Part shown: positions 1,807-12,836 of the stretch, piece by piece | How positions within the stretch are numbered: position 1 is the stretch's first letter | How the letters are laid out: each line of letters begins with the position of its first letter | Assembly (NCBI RefSeq): GCF_003350405.1 | Contig: NZ_QQAW01000012.1 | Span: 1 to 64,000, forward strand | Source of the DNA: Gluconacetobacter liquefaciens | Lineage (GTDB): Bacteria; Pseudomonadota; Alphaproteobacteria; Acetobacterales; Acetobacteraceae | Direction of reading: 5' to 3' | Length of the DNA: 64,000 nucleotides | Notes under the pieces: model-generated | Database searches by the model: none | What the model saw: only the letters and a program-made list of their open reading frames with translations | Told to the model about the DNA's origin: nothing | Translations under genes and position numbers: made by a program

Positions 1807-4800
1807 TTGAAAGTCATTGTCTGGTTCGTCCGTCACCCGGTGGCGACCATGCTGCTGCTGGTGTCGGCGGTCCTGTCCGGTCTGCTGGCGCTGCCGCGCC
1901 TGCCGGTGTCCGACCTGCCCGATGTCGATCTGCCGGTCATCTCGGTCACCGCGTCCCAGGCCGGCGGCTCGCCCGAGGTCATGGCCCGCACCATGGCCGC
2001 CCCGTTGGAACGGCGTCTGGGCAATATCGCCGGCGTGACGCAGATGGTCTCCACATCGTCGCGCGGGCGCACGCAGATTTCGCTGGGCTTCGCATTGGGG
2101 CGGGACCTCAACGGCGCCGCGCGCGATGTCGAGGCGGCGCTGCGGGCCGCGCGCATGGACCTGCCCACCACACCGGGGTCGGACCCGCAATATCATCGCG
2201 CCAATCCCAATGCGACGCCGGTGCTGATCCTGGCCGTCACGCCGGGCATGCAGCCGCTGTCCCAGCTTCATAATCTGGTCAATACCACGCTCCGCCCGAT
2301 GCTTTTGCAGGTCCAGGGGGTCGGGGACGTCACGCTGGTCGGCAGTTCCGATCCGGCGGTCCGCGTAGCCATGAACCCGCTCGCCTTCTTCAAATACGGG
2401 ATCGGGTTCGAGGATCTGCGCGCGGCCCTGGCCTCCGCCAATGCCCACACGCCCAAAGGCGTGATCGACCAGGGAAATCGTCGCTACCAGCTCGCGGTGA
2501 ACGACCAGGCGGAACAGGCGGCGGCCTATCGCGACCTGGTCATCGCCTACAAGAATGGCCACCCGGTCAGGCTGGCCGACGTGGCCACCGTCACCGACAG
2601 CATGCAGGACGTGAACGCCGCCGCGTTTTTCGACGGCAAGCCGGCGCTGACGCTCATGGTCCGGGCCCAGCCGGGTGCCAATCTGGTGGGCATCGTCGAT
2701 GCGGTGCGGGCGCGCCTGCCGCAACTGCGCACGCTGATGCCGCCCGGCGCCGATATCGCGGTGGCGCGCGACGGTTCGGCCGTCATCCGCTCCTCGCTGC
2801 ATCATACGATGGTGACGCTGCTGCTGGCCTGCCTGCTGGCGCTGGGGGTGGTGTGGGCGTTCCTGCGGTCATGGACGGCCTCGATCGCGGCCGCGATCAT
2901 CGTGCCCTGCGGCCTGGCCGCAAGCCTCGGGCCGATGAAGCTGGCGGGCTTCGGGCTGGACAATCTCTCGCTCATGGCCCTCACGGTGGTGACCGGACTG
3001 GTGGTCGACGACGCCATCGTGGTGATCGAAAACATCATGCGCCATCGCGCGCGCGGCCTGTCGCCGGAGGATGCCGCCATCGCGGGAGCAGGCGAGGTAT
3101 TGTTCACCCTGCTGTCGATTACCGTGTCGGTGCTGGCGGTGTTCCTGCCGATCGGGCTGGCCTCGGGGCTTACGGGGCGGCTGTTCCGGGAGTTCGCCGG
3201 CACGGTCGGCATCGCGGTGATCGTGTCGCTGGTCCTGTCCTGCATGGCGACACCCTGCCTGACGGCGCTCTGCATGCGGCTGGCCGAGGCACGCGGCATC
3301 GGTGGGCGCAGGCCCCGTCACGCGGATGTCGCCGCCCTGCTGGCGCATGAAAAGCAGCGGGGCAGCCTGTATCGTCGGACATTGGCATTCTGCGTGGCGC
3401 ATCCGGGCCGCAGCGCGCTGCTGCTTCCGCTGACGCTGGCGCTGGGTGTGGCGCTGTTCGTCCGCATGCCCAAAATCGTGTTCCCGCGTCAGGATATCGG
3501 GATCGTCTCCGGCGGCTCGCGCGCGACCGGCAGCTCCGTGGCCCAGACCAAGGCCCGGCTGGAGCGGTTCAGCCGCGTCCTGCTGGCCGATCCGGGCGTT
3601 GCGCATGTCATCGCCTATCTCGATACCGACGAGGGCAGCAGCCACGGCATGCTCTTCGCCACGCTCCGCGACCGTTCGACCGGGCGCGACCCCGCACCGG
3701 TCATCGCCGCGCGAGCGGCGGCCCGCATGGGGCGGGATATTCACGCCGAATACCATGCGCAGGCGCCGGGCAACCTGATGATGCGCGTGGGGTCGAACAG
3801 CAGCGGCCTCAGCTACATCCTGCGTAGCGACGACGACCGGCTTCTAAGCCCCGTCACCCGCCGGCTGGCACAGGCCCTGCGCCACCACCCCGAATTCACC
3901 ACGGTCGATCCCGATATCGACCCGCCGGGGCAGGGGATCACGCTTGCCATCGACCGCGACACCGCCGCCCGCGTGGGCGTCACGCCGCAGGTGATCGGCC
4001 ACACATTGTCCGATGCGTTGGGCCAGACCACGGCTTCGGTCGTCTACACGCCGCAGGGCCAGTATAACGTGGTGATGACGGTCCAGGACCGCTTCCTGCG
4101 CGACCCGGCCATCCTGCAGCAATTCTGGATCAGCCCCTCCGGCGGCTCCGCCTCGGGCCGTTCGGCTTCAAATACCGTCCGGGTCGCCACATCGGCCGCC
4201 GCCGGCACGGCCTTCCGCAACCAGATCGCCAACAGCCTGGCCGGCGGTGCCAATGTCTCGACCGGTTCGGCGGTGGCCACGGGGGCGGAAACCCTGGTGC
4301 CGCTATCGGTGGTCACCCGGATCACGCCCAGCCTCGACCCGGTGGCGGTCACCCATCTGGGCTACGCCAGTTCGGCGTCGCTGGCGCTGGAACTGGCGCC
4401 GGGCGTCAGCCAGTCGCAGGTCGAGACGATCATCGGCGCCGAGCGGCTGGCGCTTCACCTGCCCGATGCGGTCGGCGGCGAATTGCAGAGCGACGAGGGC
4501 GACCTTGGTCGGAACACCTACGATACCGAAATCCTGATCGGCGGCGCGATCCTCGCCGTCTATCTCACGCTGGGCATGCTCTACGAGAACGTGCTGCATC
4601 CCCTGACCATTCTCTCTACCATCCCCTCGGCCGGGGTCGGCGCGGTCATCGCGCTGGGCCTGTTCGGTCTGCCCTTCTCGGGCATGGCGGCCATCGCCAT
4701 GCTGCTGCTGACCGGAATCTCGCTCAAGAACGCCATCCTCCTGGTCGATTTCGCCATCCATGCCGAACGTGCGCAGGGCCTGACGGAAAAGGAGGCAATC

Positions 4801-5058
4801 CAGCAGGCCTGCCTGCTGCGCCTGCGGCCGATCGTCATGACCAGTTGCGCCGCCGCCCTCGGCGCGCTGCCGCTGGTGCTGATGGGGGGCTACGGAATGG
4901 AACTGCGCCAGCCGCTGGGCATCGCGCTGATCGGCGGTCTCGTCGTCAGCCAGGCCCAGACCATGTTCACCACGCCGGCCCTCTATCTTCTGGTGGCCAG
5001 GATGGCGGCATGGGGCACTCGCCGGCCACGGGCGGCGGATCGGCGCATGAGCATGTAA
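1807..5058 (+). CDS. RND-family efflux permease (AcrB/MdtB-C type)
   Basis: 1083 residues, within the 1020-1100 usual for hydrophobe/amphiphile RND pumps. The N-terminus has the classic form (FVRHP.A...L, then LP.LPVSDLPDVDLPVI.V.A). Later come the porter-domain pattern SPEVMARTMAAPLERRLGNI, the TM4 run VVTGLVVDDAIVVIEN (its two Asp are the proton-relay pair) and the second-half equivalent LLTGISLKNAILLVDF. The pump exports small molecules across the inner membrane and normally needs a periplasmic adaptor and an outer-membrane channel; neither gene is adjacent. The start codon is TTG with GGGCGGGATAGG upstream; I found no better ATG/GTG in frame. The preceding 212 bases hold only a short GGGGG-AAA-CCCCC hairpin. 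Substrate unknown. Confidence 0.9.
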   Translation: MKVIVWFVRHPVATMLLLVSAVLSGLLALPRLPVSDLPDVDLPVISVTASQAGGSPEVMARTMAAPLERRLGNIAGVTQMVSTSSRGRTQISLGFALGRDLNGAARDVEAALRAARMDLPTTPGSDPQYHRANPNATPVLILAVTPGMQPLSQLHNLVNTTLRPMLLQVQGVGDVTLVGSSDPAVRVAMNPLAFFKYGIGFEDLRAALASANAHTPKGVIDQGNRRYQLAVNDQAEQAAAYRDLVIAYKNGHPVRLADVATVTDSMQDVNAAAFFDGKPALTLMVRAQPGANLVGIVDAVRARLPQLRTLMPPGADIAVARDGSAVIRSSLHHTMVTLLLACLLALGVVWAFLRSWTASIAAAIIVPCGLAASLGPMKLAGFGLDNLSLMALTVVTGLVVDDAIVVIENIMRHRARGLSPEDAAIAGAGEVLFTLLSITVSVLAVFLPIGLASGLTGRLFREFAGTVGIAVIVSLVLSCMATPCLTALCMRLAEARGIGGRRPRHADVAALLAHEKQRGSLYRRTLAFCVAHPGRSALLLPLTLALGVALFVRMPKIVFPRQDIGIVSGGSRATGSSVAQTKARLERFSRVLLADPGVAHVIAYLDTDEGSSHGMLFATLRDRSTGRDPAPVIAARAAARMGRDIHAEYHAQAPGNLMMRVGSNSSGLSYILRSDDDRLLSPVTRRLAQALRHHPEFTTVDPDIDPPGQGITLAIDRDTAARVGVTPQVIGHTLSDALGQTTASVVYTPQGQYNVVMTVQDRFLRDPAILQQFWISPSGGSASGRSASNTVRVATSAAAGTAFRNQIANSLAGGANVSTGSAVATGAETLVPLSVVTRITPSLDPVAVTHLGYASSASLALELAPGVSQSQVETIIGAERLALHLPDAVGGELQSDEGDLGRNTYDTEILIGGAILAVYLTLGMLYENVLHPLTILSTIPSAGVGAVIALGLFGLPFSGMAAIAMLLLTGISLKNAILLVDFAIHAERAQGLTEKEAIQQACLLRLRPIVMTSCAAALGALPLVLMGGYGMELRQPLGIALIGGLVVSQAQTMFTTPALYLLVARMAAWGTRRPRAADRRMSM

Positions 5059-5409
5059 AGAATCATGATTACAAAAGGATTTTTTCTCCTTCATCCCGTG
5101 CCGACACCTGCTGGTCGCCGAAACGATGGCCGATAATCTGCGCCCCGGCGCCGCATGGCGCGGCGGTGACCATAATGCCAGAGCGATTTGACCCAGCCAG
5201 GATCACAGGAAGCGATCGAATCACGATGGATGTTCGTATTAATAATATCCACATGACACCATGACTAAAGTCTGATCAAACGACAGGGCGTGATGATATG
5301 TCAGCGGGCCGCGATGTCACGACCTCATGGCCGGACCGGGCCCGCCCCGGCGTCCATGACGATGACGACATCCGCTTTGTGATGCATGTTGTAAAAGAGG
5401 TTGATCACC
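5059..5409. other. Intergenic region between RND permease and nitroreductase gene
   Basis: About 350 bases with lower GC than its surroundings in parts, such as the run around 5235-5265. I see no convincing gene, tRNA or strong terminator. The 10-bp palindrome AATCATGATT lies just after the permease stop, and a short AAGGA/TCCTT inverted repeat follows it. The promoter for the nitroreductase gene presumably lies in the AT-richer second half. Confidence 0.4.
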
Positions 5410-6033
5410 ATGGCTGAATCTTCCAGGCCTGAATCCTCCGGGCGCGTGTCCGAAACACCCGTCGAGCCGCTGATCCTCGACCGCTGGTCGCCGCGCGCCT
5501 TTGCCGCCGCTCCGATTGCCGAAGCCGACCTGCTGGCCCTTCTCGATGCCGGCCGCTGGGCGCCGTCCGCCTATAATTCCCAGCCCTGGCGCTTTCTCTA
5601 TGCCCGGCGGGACACACCCGATTGGGAGCGGTTCCTGTCCTGGCTGATCCCGTTCAACCATTCCTGGGCGCAGCATGCCTCGGCGCTGGTCTATGTCGCG
5701 TCGCACACGGTGACCAGCGCGGCGGGGCAGGCCGAGCCCGTGCCCGCCCCCACCCATGCCTTCGATGCCGGCGCGGCAGCGGTGCTGGTGCAGCTTCAGG
5801 CGGCCCGCGCCGGCTGGGCGACGCACCCGGTCAGCGGGTTCGACAAGGACGTCGCCCGTGCGGGTCTGGAACTGCCGGACGATTACGCGCTCAACGCGGC
5901 CATCGTCATCGGTCGCCAGGGGGCGGCCGACATCCTGCCCGAAGGGCTGCGCGCGCGTGAAACGCCATCGGGCCGCCGGCCGCTGTCCGACCTGGCGTTC
6001 GAAGGGCGGTTCCCGACCCAGACCGACGCATAA
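5410..6033 (+). CDS. Nitroreductase-family FMN oxidoreductase
   Basis: 207 residues using the ATG at 5410, which has AGAGG nine bases upstream; an in-frame TTG at 5401 is less likely. The N-terminal signature RWSPRAFA followed by LLDAGRWAPSAYNSQPWRF is diagnostic of the nitroreductase fold (FMN phosphate and isoalloxazine contacts). The conserved AQHASALV and the C-terminal HPVSGFDKDVAR pattern also fit. Such enzymes use NAD(P)H to reduce nitro groups, quinones or enones; the physiological substrate cannot be read from sequence. It lies alone between the RND gene and the convergent copper ATPase gene. Confidence 0.85.
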   Translation: MAESSRPESSGRVSETPVEPLILDRWSPRAFAAAPIAEADLLALLDAGRWAPSAYNSQPWRFLYARRDTPDWERFLSWLIPFNHSWAQHASALVYVASHTVTSAAGQAEPVPAPTHAFDAGAAAVLVQLQAARAGWATHPVSGFDKDVARAGLELPDDYALNAAIVIGRQGAADILPEGLRARETPSGRRPLSDLAFEGRFPTQTDA

Positions 6034-6065: not shown

Positions 6066-8462
6066 TCAAGCCGCCCCCCGCCGAACATCGCGGGGCCTGA
6101 CCGACGGCTTCCAACGGTTGAGCAGCAGGGAATTACTGACCACCGAGACGGAACTCATGGCCATCGCCGCTCCGGCCACGATCGGGTTGAGCATGCCCAA
6201 CGCGGCCAAAGGCAACCCCAGAATATTGTAGATAAAAGCGAAAAACAGATTCTGCCGGATCTTGGACAGCGTGGCGCGCGAGAGCGAAATCGCATCCAGC
6301 ACGCTGGTCAATTCGCTGTTCATCAGCACCACATCCGCCGTCTCCAGCGCAATGGCCGAACCGCCACCGATCGCGAAACCCACATCGGCCGCCGCCAACG
6401 CGGGCGCATCGTTGATGCCATCGCCCACCATGCCGACCACACCGCCCTGCGCGCGGTATCGCTCCACGCCCTCCGCCTTGTGGCCGGGCAGCACGCCGGC
6501 CAGATAATCGTCCACGCCGACCTGCTTCGCCACGATCGCTGCCGCGCGCTGGTTGTCCCCGGTCAGCATCACCACCCGGATTCCGGCCTGCTTCAGGGCG
6601 GTCACGGTCGCAACCGCATCCGGCCGCAGGCGGTCCGCAAGGGCGATATACCCCAGCACCCGCGCGGCGAGCGCCACGCCGATAACGGTCTTGCCCTCGC
6701 TTTCCAGCCGCCCGACCAGCGCATCGTCAACGGTCAGCCCGGCCTCCGCAAGAAACCGGGGCGAACCCAGGCGGGCAACGGCGCCGTCCAGCATGGCCGT
6801 AACCCCCAGCCCGGCGACGGCCTGAAAATCCACGACGACCCGTTCGGCACTATGGGCGGCCCGTGCATGGTCCACGATCGCGCGCGCCAGCGGATGTTCC
6901 GAATCCCGCTCCAGCGCGTAGGCCACATCCAGCAATTCGGCCTCACGGCTGCCCGGCGCGGGGTGCAGGTCGCTGACGGTCGGCCGACCCTGCGTCAGCG
7001 TGCCGGTCTTGTCCACGATGATGGTCGTCAGCTTTTCCGCCTGTTCCAGCGCGTCCGCATTGCGGAACAGAATGCCCGAACGCGCTCCCAGCCCCGTCCC
7101 GACCATGATCGCGGTCGGCGTGGCCAGCCCGAGCGAACAGGGGCAGGCGATCACAAGCACCGAAACCGCCGAAACCAGGGCCCATATGGCGTTCCCCGTC
7201 ACCCCCCAGCCGGCGAGAAACGTAATCAGCGCCAGCGCCACCACGGTCGGGACGAAAATGTTCGAAACCCTGTCGGCCAGCCGCTGCACCCTGGCCTTGG
7301 ACCCCTGCGCTTGCTCGACCATCCGTACGATATGCGCCAGCGCGGTATCCGCGCCCACACCGGTTGCCCTGGCCCGCAGCACGCCATTTTCATTCAGGGT
7401 GCCGCCGAAGACCCGGTCTTCGGGTTTCTTGAGCACGGGCATGCTCTCACCCGTCAGCATGGACTCGTTGATGTCCGACGCGCCCTCGATCACCGTCGCA
7501 TCGACAGGCACGCTTTCGCCGGGGCGAATGACGACGATATCCCCCACCCGGAGATCGGCCACCGGCCGGTCGATCACATCGCCGCCGCTTTCGACATGCG
7601 CAACCGGCGGCTGAAGCTGAAGCAGGCGCTCGATCCCGGCGCTGGCCCGGTTCTTCGCCCGCGTCTCCATCAGTTTCCCGAGCGAGATCAGCGTGAGGAT
7701 GGACGCGCTGGCCTCGAAATAGACGGGTTGATGAAGCTGGAACAGCACCACCACGGCGCTGAACCCGTATGCGATGCCGGTGCCCAGCACCACCAGCACA
7801 TCCATGTTGGCCGAGCCCCCGCGCAGCGCATTCCACGCCCGCCGATACAGATGCCACGCACAGAAAACCTGCACGGGCGTCGCAAACACCAGTTGCAGCC
7901 AGCCGGGCATCATCGCCATATGCCCGGCGAGCATCCCCAGCATCTGCACGAAGAAGGGCAGGGAGAGGACCGCCGTCAGGATGAAGAGGTTGCGCTCGGC
8001 GATCCATGTCTCGGCGCGTTCGGCCTGCGGGTCCTCGCGCACGCCGTCATCCAGCCGTTTCGCGCCGAAACCGGCCTTTTCGATGCGGGTGATGAAGGTC
8101 TCGGGCTCCACGATACCGGGTACGAACACGATATGCGCACGCTCGGTGGCGAAATTCACGGCCGCCCGTGTCATGGGCAGCGTGTTGAGGATTTTTTCGA
8201 TGCGGGCGGCGCAAGCCGCGCAACTCATGCCGGAGAGCGACAGGTCGATACTGCGTTCCGCGACATCGAACCCGGCCTTGCGCACGGCAGCGACGACGGA
8301 ATCGATCGGCGTGGCCGGGTTTTCCAGAACGACCTGCGCGCGCTCGGTGGCGAAATTCACCGTCGCCGTCACGCCATCCTGCCGGTTCAGCACTTTCTCG
8401 ATGCGGGCGGCGCAGGCCGCGCAGCTCATGCCGCCAACCTGAAAACTGACCGTTACCGACAC
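6066..8462 (-). CDS. copA: Copper(I)-exporting P1B-type ATPase
   Basis: 798 residues from a GTG at 8462 preceded by GGGGGAGAG. Upstream in-frame ATGs would read through the promoter/operator and are rejected. It has two N-terminal heavy-metal-associated domains, each with GMSCAACAARIEK (residues about 11-75 and 79-145). The ATPase core follows: TGES actuator loop, CPCS ion site in the transmembrane run VIACPCSLGLATPT, phosphorylation motif DKTGTLT, SEHPLA nucleotide-binding motif, GDGINDAPAL hinge, and a final MSS-containing helix. Together these indicate P1B-1 transporters that expel Cu(I) from the cytoplasm. It is divergent from csoR, with a palindromic operator between them. The C-terminus is complete. 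Confidence 0.97.
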   Translation of the reverse strand: MSVTVSFQVGGMSCAACAARIEKVLNRQDGVTATVNFATERAQVVLENPATPIDSVVAAVRKAGFDVAERSIDLSLSGMSCAACAARIEKILNTLPMTRAAVNFATERAHIVFVPGIVEPETFITRIEKAGFGAKRLDDGVREDPQAERAETWIAERNLFILTAVLSLPFFVQMLGMLAGHMAMMPGWLQLVFATPVQVFCAWHLYRRAWNALRGGSANMDVLVVLGTGIAYGFSAVVVLFQLHQPVYFEASASILTLISLGKLMETRAKNRASAGIERLLQLQPPVAHVESGGDVIDRPVADLRVGDIVVIRPGESVPVDATVIEGASDINESMLTGESMPVLKKPEDRVFGGTLNENGVLRARATGVGADTALAHIVRMVEQAQGSKARVQRLADRVSNIFVPTVVALALITFLAGWGVTGNAIWALVSAVSVLVIACPCSLGLATPTAIMVGTGLGARSGILFRNADALEQAEKLTTIIVDKTGTLTQGRPTVSDLHPAPGSREAELLDVAYALERDSEHPLARAIVDHARAAHSAERVVVDFQAVAGLGVTAMLDGAVARLGSPRFLAEAGLTVDDALVGRLESEGKTVIGVALAARVLGYIALADRLRPDAVATVTALKQAGIRVVMLTGDNQRAAAIVAKQVGVDDYLAGVLPGHKAEGVERYRAQGGVVGMVGDGINDAPALAAADVGFAIGGGSAIALETADVVLMNSELTSVLDAISLSRATLSKIRQNLFFAFIYNILGLPLAALGMLNPIVAGAAMAMSSVSVVSNSLLLNRWKPSVRPRDVRRGAA

Positions 8463-8495
8463 TGTTTCTCTCCCCCGGAAATACGCTCTGGATAT

Positions 8496-8514
8496 TATAC
8501 CCCACCCCGGTATA
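8496..8514. promoter_or_regulatory. CsoR-type operator between copA and csoR
   Basis: TATACC-N7-GGTATA with a C-rich centre (CCACCCC). The arms are perfect inverted repeats in the 95-base divergent copA/csoR gap. CsoR/FrmR proteins bind G/C-tract operators with A/T-rich inverted ends, so this is most likely the site where CsoR represses both genes. A near-copy of the same length lies at 12295-12313 before the second copper operon. Binding itself is inferred. Confidence 0.72.
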
Positions 8515-8557
8515 TTCAAGGGAATGATTGTAAACGCCGACAGGAGGCAGGACAGGC

Positions 8558-8905
8558 ATGGCAACACAGCGTCGAAAGCCGGCAGCCGTCGACACCTGCA
8601 CGGAGTGCGTGGTGGAGGCGGATGACACGGGCAAGCGCGTTCGTCAGCCGCAGAAAAAGGCCCTGGTCAACCGTCTGCGCCGGATCGAGGGGCAGATCGG
8701 CGGCGTGCTGAACATGGTCGAGAACGACCGGTATTGCGTGGATATCCTCATGCAGATTTCCGCCGTCAAATCGGCGCTGGACGGCGTCGCCATCCAGGTT
8801 CTGTCCACCCATGCCAGCGGGTGCGTGCGCAAGGCGGTGAGAGAGGATGGCGGCGAAGAGGCCATCGAAGAACTGCTCGGCGTCGTCAGGCGCATGCTGC
8901 GTTAG
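8558..8905 (+). CDS. csoR: CsoR-family copper-sensing repressor (DUF156)
   Basis: 115 residues. The all-helical CsoR/RcnR/FrmR fold is evident from LVNRLRRIEGQIGGVLNMVE, RYCVDILMQISAVKSAL and STHASGCVRKAV. Cu(I) ligands expected for CsoR are present: Cys60, His85 and Cys89, the last two spaced H-x3-C. FrmR and RcnR types differ in these positions, so a copper sensor is favoured. An N-terminal extension of about 30 residues contains CTEC, an extra Cys pair unusual for the family. Divergent from copA and convergent with the Met-rich gene. In the family, Cu(I) binding releases the tetramer from DNA and allows efflux genes to be expressed. Confidence 0.93.
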   Translation: MATQRRKPAAVDTCTECVVEADDTGKRVRQPQKKALVNRLRRIEGQIGGVLNMVENDRYCVDILMQISAVKSALDGVAIQVLSTHASGCVRKAVREDGGEEAIEELLGVVRRMLR

Positions 8906-8921
8906 CACGCGCCCAACAGTC

Positions 8922-9224
8922 TCAGCGTTCCTGGGTCGCCGGCGGCGCGGTCTGCGCCGATGCCCCCATTGTCATGCCATGGCAGGCGGCACTCTGCTGC
9001 TTCATGGTCGGTGACAGGGTCTTGCCCTGCCTTTCCTGGCTTTCAAGGCTGGAACAGAGCGCCATCTGCTGTTCCATCGACATCCCGGCCATCGGGTCCG
9101 GCGCCTGCGTCGCAGACGACGTTTTCATGGAATCCATGGCCATGCCGGGCGTCATCCGCATCGGCGCGGCATGGGCCGTGCCGGCGAAGAGCGCGGCCAT
9201 CATGGCGGAAAGAATATAACGCAT
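8922..9224 (-). CDS. Small Met-rich periplasmic protein, putative copper binder
   Basis: 100 residues from the ATG at 9224, which has AAGGA seven bases upstream. Signal peptide: MRYILSAMMAALFAGTAHA, cleavage after AHA. The mature chain of about 80 residues is rich in Met in MxM-like clusters (MRMTPGMAMDSM, PMAGMSMEQQM, HGMTMG) with two Cys, a composition seen in periplasmic Cu(I) chaperones and buffers. Last gene of the leftward copper operon, 29 bases after copB. I do not recognise a named family. A role in periplasmic copper handling is inferred from composition and context. Confidence 0.7.
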   Translation of the reverse strand: MRYILSAMMAALFAGTAHAAPMRMTPGMAMDSMKTSSATQAPDPMAGMSMEQQMALCSSLESQERQGKTLSPTMKQQSAACHGMTMGASAQTAPPATQER

Positions 9225-9253
9225 CGAAATATCCTTGTTTCTTTTGTGAATAT

Positions 9254-10033
9254 TCAAAACCAGCTTCGGATGCCGAAGGTAAAGCGAAGCGTGCCGGTCT
9301 CCCCGCCCTGATCGCGGACGATCCGGCGGCCCTGGGTCAGATGCCCCGCATAGGTCACGGCCACATAAGGCGCGAATTTCCGCCAGATCTCGTACCGCAG
9401 GCGCAGCCCGGCATCCACATCCGACAGCCCGGCGCCAACCTGCCGCTCGGCATCGGCCTTGGTGTACAGATTGAACTCGGCCTGCGGCTGAAGGATCAGC
9501 CGGTTGGTCAGCAGGAAATCGTAGGACCCTTCCACCCGGCTGGCGAAACGCCCCCGGTCGCTGACATAGGCCGTGGCCTGCAACTCGAACTGATAGAGCG
9601 CAAGCCCCTGGATGCCGAACGCGCCCCAGGTCCGGGTCGGCCCGTCATCGAGATCCGCCCGCACGCCGCCCTGAAGATTGAAATAGGTCGAGATCGCGCG
9701 GCTGTAGAGAATTTCGTGGTCCCCGTCGCCCAGCTTGCCGTTCTGGACCGTCCCTTCGGATTTGAGCCAGATCCGGTTGTAGTCCGTGCCGTACCAGGCT
9801 TCTCCATCCCAGCGAAAGGCAGAGCCGCCGGGCGCATACCGGCCTTCGAATTCGTCAAGAATGCCATGGAAATAACGGTCCTGGTCCATGACGGGCGGCA
9901 TGTTGCCCAGATAGGCGACCGGCGTCGCGGAGGGCGCATCGGCGGCGACATAATGCGTGCCCGAACCCTGCGCCCACGCCGGCCCCGCGAGCAGAAACGG
10001 CATAAGCGCCGTCACCAGCAGCGCGCCCTTCAT
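9254..10033 (-). CDS. copB: CopB/PcoB outer-membrane copper resistance protein
   Basis: 259 residues from the ATG at 10033, which overlaps the multicopper-oxidase stop by 4 bases (ATGA). Signal peptide: MKGALLVTALMPFLLAGPAWA. The mature part begins a short distance before the conserved PPVMDQDRYFHGILDEFEGR. Alternating amphipathic strands and the C-terminal aromatic (RSWF) fit an outer-membrane beta-barrel; signatures such as WYGTDYNRIWLKSEG and the YEIWRKFAPYVAV strand are typical of CopB. It is thought to bind or move copper at the outer membrane in partnership with the CopA oxidase encoded just upstream. The Met/His-rich N-terminal repeats of some CopB proteins are absent here. Confidence 0.92.
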   Translation of the reverse strand: MKGALLVTALMPFLLAGPAWAQGSGTHYVAADAPSATPVAYLGNMPPVMDQDRYFHGILDEFEGRYAPGGSAFRWDGEAWYGTDYNRIWLKSEGTVQNGKLGDGDHEILYSRAISTYFNLQGGVRADLDDGPTRTWGAFGIQGLALYQFELQATAYVSDRGRFASRVEGSYDFLLTNRLILQPQAEFNLYTKADAERQVGAGLSDVDAGLRLRYEIWRKFAPYVAVTYAGHLTQGRRIVRDQGGETGTLRFTFGIRSWF

Positions 10034-11829
10034 GCCACGATCACCGTGCGGAACATGCCAAGATCCATATGGTAGATGAGGTGGCAGTGATAGGCCCACA
10101 TGCCCGGCACGTCGGCGGTCACAAGGTAGCTCAGGCGCGACCCCGGTTGGGAAATGATCGTGTGTTTGTAAGGGCGGTAATCCCCCTGGCCGTTTTCCAG
10201 TTCGCTCCATAATCCGTGCAGGTGGATCGGGTGCTCCATCATCGTGTCGTTGATCAGCGTAAAGCGCACCCGCTCGCCCAGTTTCAGCCGGATCGGCCCC
10301 GATTCTGAGAATTTCCGGCCGTTGAAGCCCCAGATATAGCGCTCCATGTTCCCGGTCAGATGCAGGATGATCTCCCGCGTGGGCGGGCGCGGATCGGCGC
10401 CCGGCCGGGTGGCTCTCAGTTGCTTGTAGGTCAGGACCCGCCGGCCGTTCTCCTCCAGCCCGTCTCCGGGGCTGCCCAGCCGGTCCACCGGCATCATGGC
10501 GACATTCTGGTTCTCGACATTGAGCGGCGGTGGTCCGGGGTCATCCACCTCCATCGCCGGCTTGGGCATGGGCATGTCGCCCATGGCGGGCATATCCCCA
10601 TGCGCCATATCCATGCCGCCCGAGCCCGGCATGCCGGACATATCCATGTCCTTCATGCTCTCGCCGGGTTTCATGTCTCCCATGCCCATGTTTCCCATGC
10701 CCATGTCGATCATCGTGCGCACGGGCCGGGGGTCCATCGGCGGGATCACGCCGGCCATGCCCGCCCGCGGCGCCAGCGTGCCACGGGCAAAGCCGGTGCG
10801 GTCCTCGCTCTGCGCGAAAATCGTGTAGGCCCGGTCCTCCCTCGGTTGCACGATCACGTCATAGGTCTCGGCTACGCCGATCCGAAACTCGTCCACGGGC
10901 ACAGGGTCCACGTCGTTGCCGTCGGCCTGCACCACCAGCATCTCCAGGCCGGGGATGCGGATATCGAAGAACGTCATGGACGCGGCGTTGATGAAGCGCA
11001 GGCGAACCCGCTCGCCGGGCCGGAACAGGCCGTTCCAGTTCATCTCGGGCGCATGGCCGTTGAGCAGATAGGTGTAGATGATCCCGCTGACATCCGAGAT
11101 GTCCGTGGCGGCCATCCGCATCCGCGACCATGCCAGCCTGTCCTTCAGCGCGGCGATCGCACCGCCGGCCCGGCGCGCGTCTGCCGGAAAAGACGCGGCG
11201 GTACGCTGGCGGAAAGTATAGTAGTCATCCTGCATCTTCAGGTTGCTGACGATGTCCGACGGCGCCACGTCTGTCCATTCCGACAGCAGGATCACATAGT
11301 CCCGGTCACAGGGTTCCGGGGCCGGCTCGCGCGGGTCGATCACGACGGCGCCGTACAGTCCCTGCACTTCCTGCATGCCGGAATGGCTGTGATACCAGTA
11401 TGTCCCGCTCTGATGGACGCGAAAGCGATAGGTAAAGGTCTCGCCGGGCCGGATGCCGGTAAAGCTCAGGCCCGGCACGCCATCCATGGCCGCGGGCAGA
11501 CGGATGCCGTGCCAGTGGATGGAGGTGTCTTCGTTCTCCAAGCCGTTGGTCACGTTGATCGCAACGGTGTCGCCCTGCCGCCAGCGCAGGATGGGGCCGG
11601 GAACGCTACCCCCGATACAAGGCGCATTCAGGGATTTGCGGTCGATTTCGATGCGCGAACGGCCGACATTCAAATTCCAGGTCGCCGAAGCGGCGGGTGG
11701 CAGCACGCCCGGCGGCGTGGCCAGCGCCTGTGACGGGTGCGGGAGGGCGGCCAGAAGACCGCCAGCCCCCACACGCGCGACAAAACGGCGACGTGTCAGG
11801 CCGCCCGCCATGCGGGACGGTATGGACAT
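10030..11829 (-). CDS. pcoA: CopA/PcoA-family multicopper oxidase (copper resistance)
   Basis: 599 residues. Twin-arginine signal (TRRRFVARVGAGGLLAALP) for export in folded form. Copper-ligand motifs are in order: HWHGIRLP, YWYHSHSG, HPIHLHG and the C-terminal HCHLIYHMDLGMF carrying the type-1 Cys. A methionine-rich insertion (about residues 372-435, dense in MGM, DMDMSGM, MDMAH and MPM) is the classic CopA copper-binding region. The enzyme oxidises periplasmic Cu(I) to the less toxic Cu(II). First large gene of the operon; copB follows with a 4-base overlap. A CsoR-like palindrome lies upstream of the operon's small first gene. Confidence 0.95.
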   Translation of the reverse strand: MSIPSRMAGGLTRRRFVARVGAGGLLAALPHPSQALATPPGVLPPAASATWNLNVGRSRIEIDRKSLNAPCIGGSVPGPILRWRQGDTVAINVTNGLENEDTSIHWHGIRLPAAMDGVPGLSFTGIRPGETFTYRFRVHQSGTYWYHSHSGMQEVQGLYGAVVIDPREPAPEPCDRDYVILLSEWTDVAPSDIVSNLKMQDDYYTFRQRTAASFPADARRAGGAIAALKDRLAWSRMRMAATDISDVSGIIYTYLLNGHAPEMNWNGLFRPGERVRLRFINAASMTFFDIRIPGLEMLVVQADGNDVDPVPVDEFRIGVAETYDVIVQPREDRAYTIFAQSEDRTGFARGTLAPRAGMAGVIPPMDPRPVRTMIDMGMGNMGMGDMKPGESMKDMDMSGMPGSGGMDMAHGDMPAMGDMPMPKPAMEVDDPGPPPLNVENQNVAMMPVDRLGSPGDGLEENGRRVLTYKQLRATRPGADPRPPTREIILHLTGNMERYIWGFNGRKFSESGPIRLKLGERVRFTLINDTMMEHPIHLHGLWSELENGQGDYRPYKHTIISQPGSRLSYLVTADVPGMWAYHCHLIYHMDLGMFRTVIVA

Positions 11830-11903
11830 AGCTAAGGATCCGCTAAAACAGTGTCAGAACAGGCCACCGGCAGATGGCAGGACGCAAGACGCCCGTCAGG
11901 CGT

Positions 11904-12248
11904 TCAGACAGCGCGGATTTTCGGTGGCCTGAAAGACGGCATCCCGTCAGTGCTGGGGGGGACGGCCAGACCGTACGCCACAAAGGGCTGCTTGCGCATT
12001 TCCGGTTGCAGCGCCGCCAGCAGAATCGTCGCCGGAGGCGAAAGATCGGTCGACGCGGCATGGACATGGCAGCATTTGTCGCTGTGGTGGTTCATGTCGG
12101 TGCAATGGTGCGTCACCATGGTGGCCCCGTGATGGTGCATCACCGGGGGCGCGTCCGCATGGGCAGGAACGAAGCCGACCAGCAGCCACACCTGCATCAG
12201 CAGGCAGGCCAGCAGACCTGTCGAAATCCGGGCATGTGTCCTGACCAT
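11904..12248 (-). CDS. Small His/Cys-rich exported protein at head of copper operon
   Basis: 114 residues from the ATG at 12248 with AGGAG nine bases upstream. A hydrophobic signal or anchor (STGLLACLLMQVWLLVGF) is followed by a metal-ligand-rich segment: VMHHHGATMVTHHC, then NHHSDKCCHVH. This resembles the short His/Cys proteins (DUF2946-like) often found with copper genes. A direct role in binding copper in the periplasm is inferred. It is the first gene of the leftward operon, 74 bases before the oxidase, and its 5' region contains the second CsoR-type palindrome. The tail RPPKIRAV shows no recognisable domain. Confidence 0.62.
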   Translation of the reverse strand: MVRTHARISTGLLACLLMQVWLLVGFVPAHADAPPVMHHHGATMVTHHCTDMNHHSDKCCHVHAASTDLSPPATILLAALQPEMRKQPFVAYGLAVPPSTDGMPSFRPPKIRAV

Positions 12249-12294
12249 CCAGGGCTCCTGTGCTCCGACGCGAAAACGCGGCTTCACCGGCCCG

Positions 12295-12313
12295 TATACC
12301 CTCTGGGGGCATA
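12295..12313. promoter_or_regulatory. Second CsoR-type operator, upstream of the pcoA-copB operon
   Basis: TATACCC-TCTGG-GGGCATA, a 19-bp inverted repeat with one arm mismatch, extended to 21 bp by flanking G and C. Same length, arms and C/G-rich centre as the copA/csoR site at 8496-8514. It lies about 47 bases upstream of the first copper operon gene, where a repressor would block transcription. Best read as a second CsoR target, making both units one copper regulon. Confidence 0.65.
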
Positions 12314-12344
12314 CGGGGAAAGTCTTTTCCGGGGTCGGTTTCGC

Positions 12345-12836
12345 TCAGGCGTCCTTGCCGAACAGGGCCGTCAGGCTGGCCGAGCCGAGGGAATGGCTGT
12401 GCAGGAAGAAGCCGACCATGGCGCCCGAGGCATCGCTGGGTACGCTCAGCGTCTCGGTATCCAGCGCGTGGACGGTAAAGATGTAGCGGTGCGCCGGGCC
12501 GGGCGGGGGGGCCGCGCCGCCATAGACGTTGCCGCCGAAATCGGTGCGGGTCATGAACGCGCCGTCGGGCAGGTCCGCATCGCCCGATCCGGCACCGGCG
12601 GCCAGGGTGGTGACGGTGGCCGGAATGTTCACGGCTACCCAATGCCACCAGCCCGAGCCGGTCGGCGCATCGGGGTCGTACATCGTGATGGCGAAGCTGC
12701 GCGTGCCCTCGGGCGCGCCGCTCCAGGCCAGTGGCGGCGAGATATTGCCGCCACGATAGCCCATGCCGTCAAAGACCTGGGCGTCCGGCAGGCGTTCACC
12801 GTCCTTGAAGGCCCGGCTGGTCAGGGTGAATGTCAT
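12345..12836 (-). CDS. YbhB/YbcL-family PEBP (Raf-kinase-inhibitor-like) protein
   Basis: 163 residues. Family landmarks: GGNISPPLAWSGAPEGTRSFAITMYDPDAP (split here by family spacing rules into ISPPL and YDPDAPTGSG), the WWHWVAVNIP motif and GPAHRYIFTVHAL. These form the phosphatidylethanolamine-binding-protein ligand pocket. Bacterial YbhB/YbcL proteins have no settled function. GAAGGA precedes the ATG. It lies 17 bases after a 73-codon gene on the same strand, so the two probably form a small operon unrelated to the copper genes. Confidence 0.9.
   Translation of the reverse strand: MTFTLTSRAFKDGERLPDAQVFDGMGYRGGNISPPLAWSGAPEGTRSFAITMYDPDAPTGSGWWHWVAVNIPATVTTLAAGAGSGDADLPDGAFMTRTDFGGNVYGGAAPPPGPAHRYIFTVHALDTETLSVPSDASGAMVGFFLHSHSLGSASLTALFGKDA

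Follow-up and report, generated by a model that had tools for sequence, protein, structure and literature searches.

Putative twin CsoR operators upstream of a copper ATPase gene and a leader-headed multicopper oxidase operon in Gluconacetobacter liquefaciens

In Bradyrhizobium liaoningense, the shared csoR-cueA promoter is reported to hold TATACCCCTACCGGGTATA, a 7-bp repeat whose halves are 5 bp apart, and the CsoR-box given as TATACCCnnnnnGGGTATA overlaps both -10 elements, with csoR and cueA mRNA being high in a csoR mutant (PMC5057107). In Staphylococcus aureus, one CsoR serves two separate units, a copper ATPase unit (copA-copZ) and a multicopper oxidase unit (copB-mco), and copper-dependent derepression is reported to require the Cys-His-Cys residues of CsoR (PMC6191537). 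Here we analyzed a 64,000-nucleotide stretch of the Gluconacetobacter liquefaciens genome (contig NZ_QQAW01000012.1, positions 1 to 64,000 of the forward strand; the whole stretch is called the window below), in which two dyads resembling the CsoR-box stand upstream of a copper ATPase gene (copA) and of an oxidase operon (leader gene, pcoA, copB), with csoR encoded between them. An arrangement in which twin CsoR operators serve a pump unit as well as an oxidase unit is of a known kind. The features concerned are as follows.

8496..8514, no strand: putative CsoR operator 1, TATACC-N7-GGTATA (TATACCCCACCCCGGTATA), between the divergent copA and csoR, 1 mismatch from the CsoR-box TATACCCnnnnnGGGTATA
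12295..12313, no strand: putative CsoR operator 2, TATACCC-N5-GGGCATA (TATACCCTCTGGGGGCATA), upstream of the leader-pcoA-copB run
8558..8905, plus strand: csoR, 115 amino acids, Trns_repr_metal domain, C60-H85-C89, N-terminal extension with CxxC
6066..8462, minus strand: copA, P-type copper ATPase with two HMA domains; the start, a GTG at 8462, was read by eye
11904..12248, minus strand: leader gene, His/Cys-rich, with a signal-peptide-like start, CCHVH and a C-terminal RPPK; DUF2946/CutF/CopL-like
10030..11829, minus strand: pcoA, multicopper oxidase with a twin-arginine signal (TIGR01480, 798 bits)
9254..10033, minus strand: copB, copper resistance protein B (PF05275), which overlaps the stop of pcoA; its start was read by eye

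As in B. liaoningense, divergent csoR and copper ATPase genes share a 19-bp dyad with 7-bp arms and a 5-bp spacer, and the consensus of our two sites, TATACCC-N5-GGGTATA, is identical to the CsoR-box TATACCCnnnnnGGGTATA of that organism (PMC5057107). The oxidase gene of B. liaoningense, a copA found by transposon mutagenesis, is not described with a CsoR-box in the accessible part of that report, whereas the oxidase operon here has one. S. aureus, on the other hand, is Gram-positive and carries its second unit on a mobile element with an efflux pump gene of its own, and the accessible part of the report on its CsoR regulon makes no mention of a DUF2946-type leader (PMC6191537). Among the best 12 to 20 papers of each literature search, no title or opening of an abstract dealt with CsoR operators of acetic acid bacteria or with CsoR acting over a DUF2946 leader, which is weak evidence of absence.

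The twin dyads are real and, judging from their sequence and distribution, are very likely CsoR operators. Both were found exactly at the positions given in the first-pass annotation, and the same length and arms that it had claimed for them hold good, as both are 19-bp dyads, each 1 mismatch from the common consensus; operator 2 is embedded in a longer 27-bp dyad (CCCGTATACCCTCTGGGGGCATACGGG, 12291-12317). The window has no other place within 3 mismatches of this consensus, while shuffled windows contain 0.42 such places on average, with two or more in 8 of at least 100 shuffles. The form TATACC-N(4-9)-GGTATA occurs once in the window and not at all in 100 shuffles. A scan of the whole genome (4,173,902 bases in 31 contigs) returned 33 palindromic places with at most 3 mismatches: none at 0 or 2, both of our sites at 1, and 31 at 3. 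Our two sites are thus the only places with at most 2 mismatches in 4.17 Mb. The consensus was derived from both sites, and their own low mismatch count is therefore partly circular; the informative part is that there is no third genomic place at that level.

The regulator encoded between the two sites matches PF02583 at 102.3 bits (cut-off 22.8) and is the only CsoR-family (PF02583) protein found in the genome. Its residues C60, H85 and C89 align with those of solved CsoRs, with ligand spacings of 25 and 4 that equal those reported for C41/H66/C70 of S. aureus CsoR, and the C-H-C set is retained in 50 of 50 aligned relatives. These data agree with the earlier claim that a Cys-His-Cys CsoR lies between the operators. 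The nearest solved structures are chains 4m1p, 4adz and 2hh7, all named CsoR and coming from Geobacillus, Streptomyces and Mycobacterium, respectively. The protein might instead sense formaldehyde, nickel or sulfane sulfur, in which case the regulon would not be a copper regulon; the NCBIfam models for FrmR (45 bits) and RcnR (34 bits) do score it, and all three of its NCBIfam matches, that to RicR included, lie below their cut-offs. However, the RicR model scores higher (83 bits), the closest solved relatives are named CsoR, the C-H-C residues retained in all 50 aligned relatives are spaced like the copper ligands of S. aureus and Pseudomonas putida, and copper genes lie downstream of both sites, so that a signal other than Cu(I) is highly improbable. 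The N-terminal extension of the window CsoR (C14 and C17 of the CxxC; 8558-8617) is present in 23 of the 50 aligned CsoRs, and it covers all 13 of the loci L017-L028 and L030 plus some gammaproteobacteria, with gene starts partly guessed in both tallies.

A CsoR scan of genome contigs gave 66 loci, the nearest of which come from Gluconacetobacter, Acetobacter, Gluconobacter and Tanticharoenia; the one closest to the window belongs to Gluconacetobacter dulcium LMG 1728 (CsoR 93%, CopA 95%, YbhB 99%). Among 26 selected loci, the upstream 250 bp held a site with at most 2 mismatches for 10 of 14 copA genes, 12 of 13 leaders and 4 of 22 csoR genes, with resampled sequence giving 6/7000, 1/6500 and 2/11000, respectively. 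This count leaves out the leaders of L024 and L027, which did not pass the identity filter, though sites stand 204 and 223 bp upstream of them. A PF02583 protein is found in 76 of 150 genomes of the family, and 21 of the 25 genomes with a site at no more than 1 mismatch are among these 76. Such sites number 30 in total; 24 of the 26 in genomes with a PF02583 protein stand beside csoR, copA or pcoA, as do none of the 4 in genomes without one.

As for pcoA, a site with at most 2 mismatches is found within 1 kb upstream in 11 of 14 genomes with CsoR vs 0 of 40 without (Fisher test, 4e-9; 6e-8 when three near-identical genomes are treated as one; kinship is otherwise uncorrected). This comparison takes one pcoA per genome, some genomes having more than one, from 13 genomes of the genus and from all others among the 45 genomes of the family above the PcoA cut-off, and presence of CsoR means a PF02583 match at E <=1e-25, a threshold at a gap in the list that was noticed afterwards. 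The first 40 pcoA loci gave 10/12 with and 0/28 without CsoR. Fifteen added genomes contributed one site (G135), one CsoR-encoding genome with none (G024) and 12 genomes without CsoR and without a site, G009 (with CsoR) being excluded because its contig ends at pcoA. The region of G059, among the genomes without CsoR, extends only 736 bp upstream, and G159 was left out for want of a full PcoA. Within the genus (14 genomes), G000, G155 and G156 have a strong CsoR match, and four weaker PF02583 matches at about 1e-21 were found in G157, G159 and G160 (one per genome) and, beside its strong match, in G155. PcoA is above the cut-off in 13 of these 14 genomes, and a site near pcoA is present in G000, G155 and G156 only; copA was not searched for. 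For sites in genus members without CsoR, no copper genes were found at the loci examined, the other sites having been compared with pcoA positions only. In G156 (G. sacchari), pcoA and its site are on a different contig from csoR, which fits with CsoR acting in trans. A further CsoR-like site of G. sacchari (L017:2511-2529, 1 mismatch) stands between open reading frames that look, by eye, copZ-like and TonB-receptor-like; it is possibly an extra member of the regulon in that species.

The dyads might instead be MerR-type (CueR) activator sites in a promoter spacer, and the window copA dyad does sit between TTGA-like and TATAAT hexamers. However, site presence follows CsoR presence, and the dyads do not match the CueR operator. 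The sequence also fits the published CsoR-box (PMC5057107), making CueR sites very implausible. In contrast, one CsoR regulon covering copA and the oxidase operon, as the first-pass annotation had predicted, is well supported by the identity of the consensus with the CsoR-box, a C-H-C sensor that is the only family member found, the uniqueness of both sites genome-wide, their presence before pcoA in step with CsoR and their near-constant distance from gene starts.

With regard to this distance, the operator ends 31-35 nt from the projected copA start in 10 of 12 genes (62 nt in two Gluconobacter loci) and 43-49 nt from the leader start in 12 of 14 (204 and 223 nt in Gluconobacter). In the window, operator 2 lies between the end of ybhB (minus strand) and the beginning of the leader-pcoA-copB run (minus strand), and the only nearby gene start that it faces is that of this run. 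Repression through promoter blocking would be the natural reading of such placement. Autoregulation of csoR was considered as a conserved feature and rejected: only 4 of the 22 regions upstream of csoR hold a site, all four shared with a divergent copA (among the 22, L026 and L096, both without a site, look like one species counted twice). The sites track copA and the pcoA operon rather than csoR. In the Acetobacter loci L018, L020, L023 and L028, copA is about 3 kb away from csoR and the site accompanies copA, and in the near-identical G001, G037 and G079 the site is upstream of a csoR that opens the same run as pcoA. Since the four csoR sites just mentioned are shared with a divergent copA, the control of csoR itself apparently depends on its neighbor.

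The first gene of the oxidase operon had been described as His-rich. It is His/Cys-rich, but its Cys pair, its PP motif and the profile matches of its homologues make it look like a leader of the DUF2946/CutF/CopL type. DUF2946 is the family of CutF and CruR, for which control of downstream genes in the course of their own translation is reported; in CruR of Bordetella a nearly fixed 45 residues lie between the Cys motif and RAPP, and CutF precedes a multicopper oxidase gene whose ribosome site is shielded by a stem-loop (PMC9426467, PMC9973294). As in cutFOG of Rhodobacter capsulatus, CruR and CopL of Xanthomonas, the first gene here appears to code for a short peptide that is exported and has a Cys pair as well as a proline motif at its C-terminus. 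Unlike in cutFOG, where cutF expression is reported to be unresponsive to copper, the leader promoter here carries a putative CsoR operator (PMC9973294, PMC8456105, PMC9426467).

Homologues of the leader likewise begin like a signal peptide, followed by a His/Met stretch that varies, the CC pair and, at the C-terminus, PP[K/R]. From CC to PP there are exactly 47 residues in 19 of the 20 rows, and in 15 of 16 once duplicates are removed, and Cys59, Cys60, Pro108 and Pro109 are invariant across 15 leader sequences. DUF2946 is matched by 11 of 15 homologues at E <=1 (best 1.4e-5), DUF6153 by 8 of 15 (best 2.1e-4) and CopL_fam by 2 of 15 (best 0.0021). Leaders precede pcoA in 12 of 14 genomes with CsoR vs 20 of 40 without; they are commoner with CsoR (p 0.03) but, being present in genomes that lack it, do not depend on it. 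Codons after PP[K/R] could pair with the ribosome-site region of pcoA in 10 of 15 rows, the sequences differing between groups, and such RNA pairing between leader and pcoA is suggestive only. The following two features belong to this operon.

11830..11903, minus strand: gap between leader and pcoA; possible pairing of ATCCGC (last leader codons) with GCGGAT (pcoA Shine-Dalgarno region) and of the RPP codons with CGGTGGCCTG, suggestive only
8922..9224, minus strand: gene for a small Met-rich protein, last of the run; start read by eye

The leader RPP codons (CAGGCCACCG) are perfectly complementary over 10 bp to CGGTGGCCTG in the leader-pcoA gap (11824-11948), a pairing that is also seen in L030 and is absent from L163. 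An Rfam search of 8300-12500 gave two matches, both below gathering scores. The Met-rich protein at 8922-9224 is kept beside copB in relatives (31-89% identity) and had no family match in profile searches.

The oxidase operon differs from copA in a further promoter element.

12317..12330, no strand: second dyad, GGAAA-N4-TTTCC, immediately upstream of operator 2; relatives also have a dyad at this position

A dyad with arms of at least 5 directly upstream of the operator is present in 12 of 14 leader promoters (window included; shuffles give 0.8 on average and 4 at the most) vs 0 of 12 copA promoters; the leader-promoter rows are related, and the dyad sequence differs between groups. The variants include GAAAAG-N-CTTTTC in several Acetobacter and GGAAT-N6-ATTCC in Gluconobacter, and GGAAA-N4-TTTCC has one exact copy and one place at 1 mismatch in the genome. 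In 18 further loci (15 of them without CsoR, with leader starts guessed), no consistent dyad was found upstream of leaders. The second dyad at the leader and its lack at copA suggest that the inputs of the two promoters are not identical, and the oxidase operon is probably under more than one control. Taken further, only operator 1 might work as a CsoR site, with the oxidase operon governed mainly by its leader and by any factor binding the second dyad (12317-12330). This would fit the restriction of the dyad to leader promoters, the leaders before pcoA in genomes without CsoR, and the TATGCCC arm and poor -10-like hexamer (TATACG) of operator 2. But sites upstream of pcoA appear only in genomes with CsoR (11/14 vs 0/40), and operator 2 resembles operator 1 in length and arms and keeps a near-constant distance to the leader start, thus suggesting that a CsoR role for operator 1 alone is unlikely.

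Several observations weigh against CsoR operators on both units combined with a leader checkpoint. Raw site counts are not above those of a reversed-pattern control, either in this genome at up to 3 mismatches (33 vs 108) or at up to 2 mismatches in 14 genomes (34 vs 166; this genome, 2 vs 11). Enrichment by raw count was therefore dropped as an argument, and the evidence rests on placement and co-occurrence, not on number. The operator arm GGGTATA is followed by TATAAT or TATAAA in 8 of 12 copA promoters but in no more than 5 of the 14 leader promoters; the window itself has TATAAT as the -10-like hexamer of copA and TATACG as that of the leader. A sigma-70 scan gave no match for copA or the leader (none on the minus strand), and its sole match is weak, in the csoR direction (8489-8516, plus strand) and not above shuffles. 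As for exceptions among relatives, the L028 leader has no site, the copA sites of L025 and L026 are at 3 mismatches, and L113 and L131 have no site within 250 bp of the projected copA. Three genomes with CsoR lack a pcoA site at 2 mismatches or fewer, namely G048 and G025 (3 mismatches each) and G024 (6 mismatches, its PcoA being only 45% identical). The window leader itself matches no family at E <=1. The permutation test of leader-pcoA pairing is marginal (p 0.019 for 13 groups, and 0.002-0.037 with other representatives), and the minimum-energy fold of the window gap does not have the ATCCGC-GCGGAT helix, the RPP codons being paired elsewhere. Finally, deletion of csoR in P. putida is reported to raise three target genes only about 1.3-fold; the CsoR effect in that organism is weak and secondary to CueR and CopR (PMC11978298).

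Overall, we consider it very probable that the best explanation is that of CsoR operators on both units together with a probable leader checkpoint on pcoA. Apo-CsoR would bind both 19-bp dyads in the predicted core-promoter regions and block transcription of copA, by position also that of csoR, and that of the leader-pcoA-copB run. Binding of cytoplasmic Cu(I) to Cys60-His85-Cys89 would release CsoR, upon which the export ATPase and the periplasmic oxidase operon would be transcribed together. The pcoA operon would probably then pass a second checkpoint at the leader, a short, apparently exported Cys/His-rich peptide with PP[K/R] at its C-terminus that, while still nascent, may detect copper and regulate the translation of pcoA. 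The part of the earlier prediction that placed both units in one regulon stands, whereas joint derepression probably does not fully account for the control of the oxidase operon, given its leader and second dyad.

A more elaborate version, which we put forward tentatively at somewhat less than even chances, is that the oxidase operon has a two-step copper gate plus a third input. The CsoR operator would read cytoplasmic Cu(I) at the level of transcription, the CutF/CopL-type nascent exported leader would read copper at or beyond the membrane at the level of translation, and the third input would act at the conserved upstream dyad. The leader would then be the wider layer, over which CsoR control has been gained or lost.

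Beside the copper genes, the window also codes for a resistance-nodulation-division (RND) efflux permease and a nitroreductase-family protein (1807-5058 and 5401-6033, respectively), and the window scan found no CsoR-like site with 3 or fewer mismatches near these two genes.

These results point to a CsoR regulon of acetic acid bacteria that is clear and can be put to the test, for which the members of the genus without CsoR and without a pcoA site provide a natural contrast. If the leader layer is true, one operon would join cytoplasmic transcriptional sensing with nascent-chain copper sensing, and the two sensing layers would be separable by point mutations in one laboratory strain.

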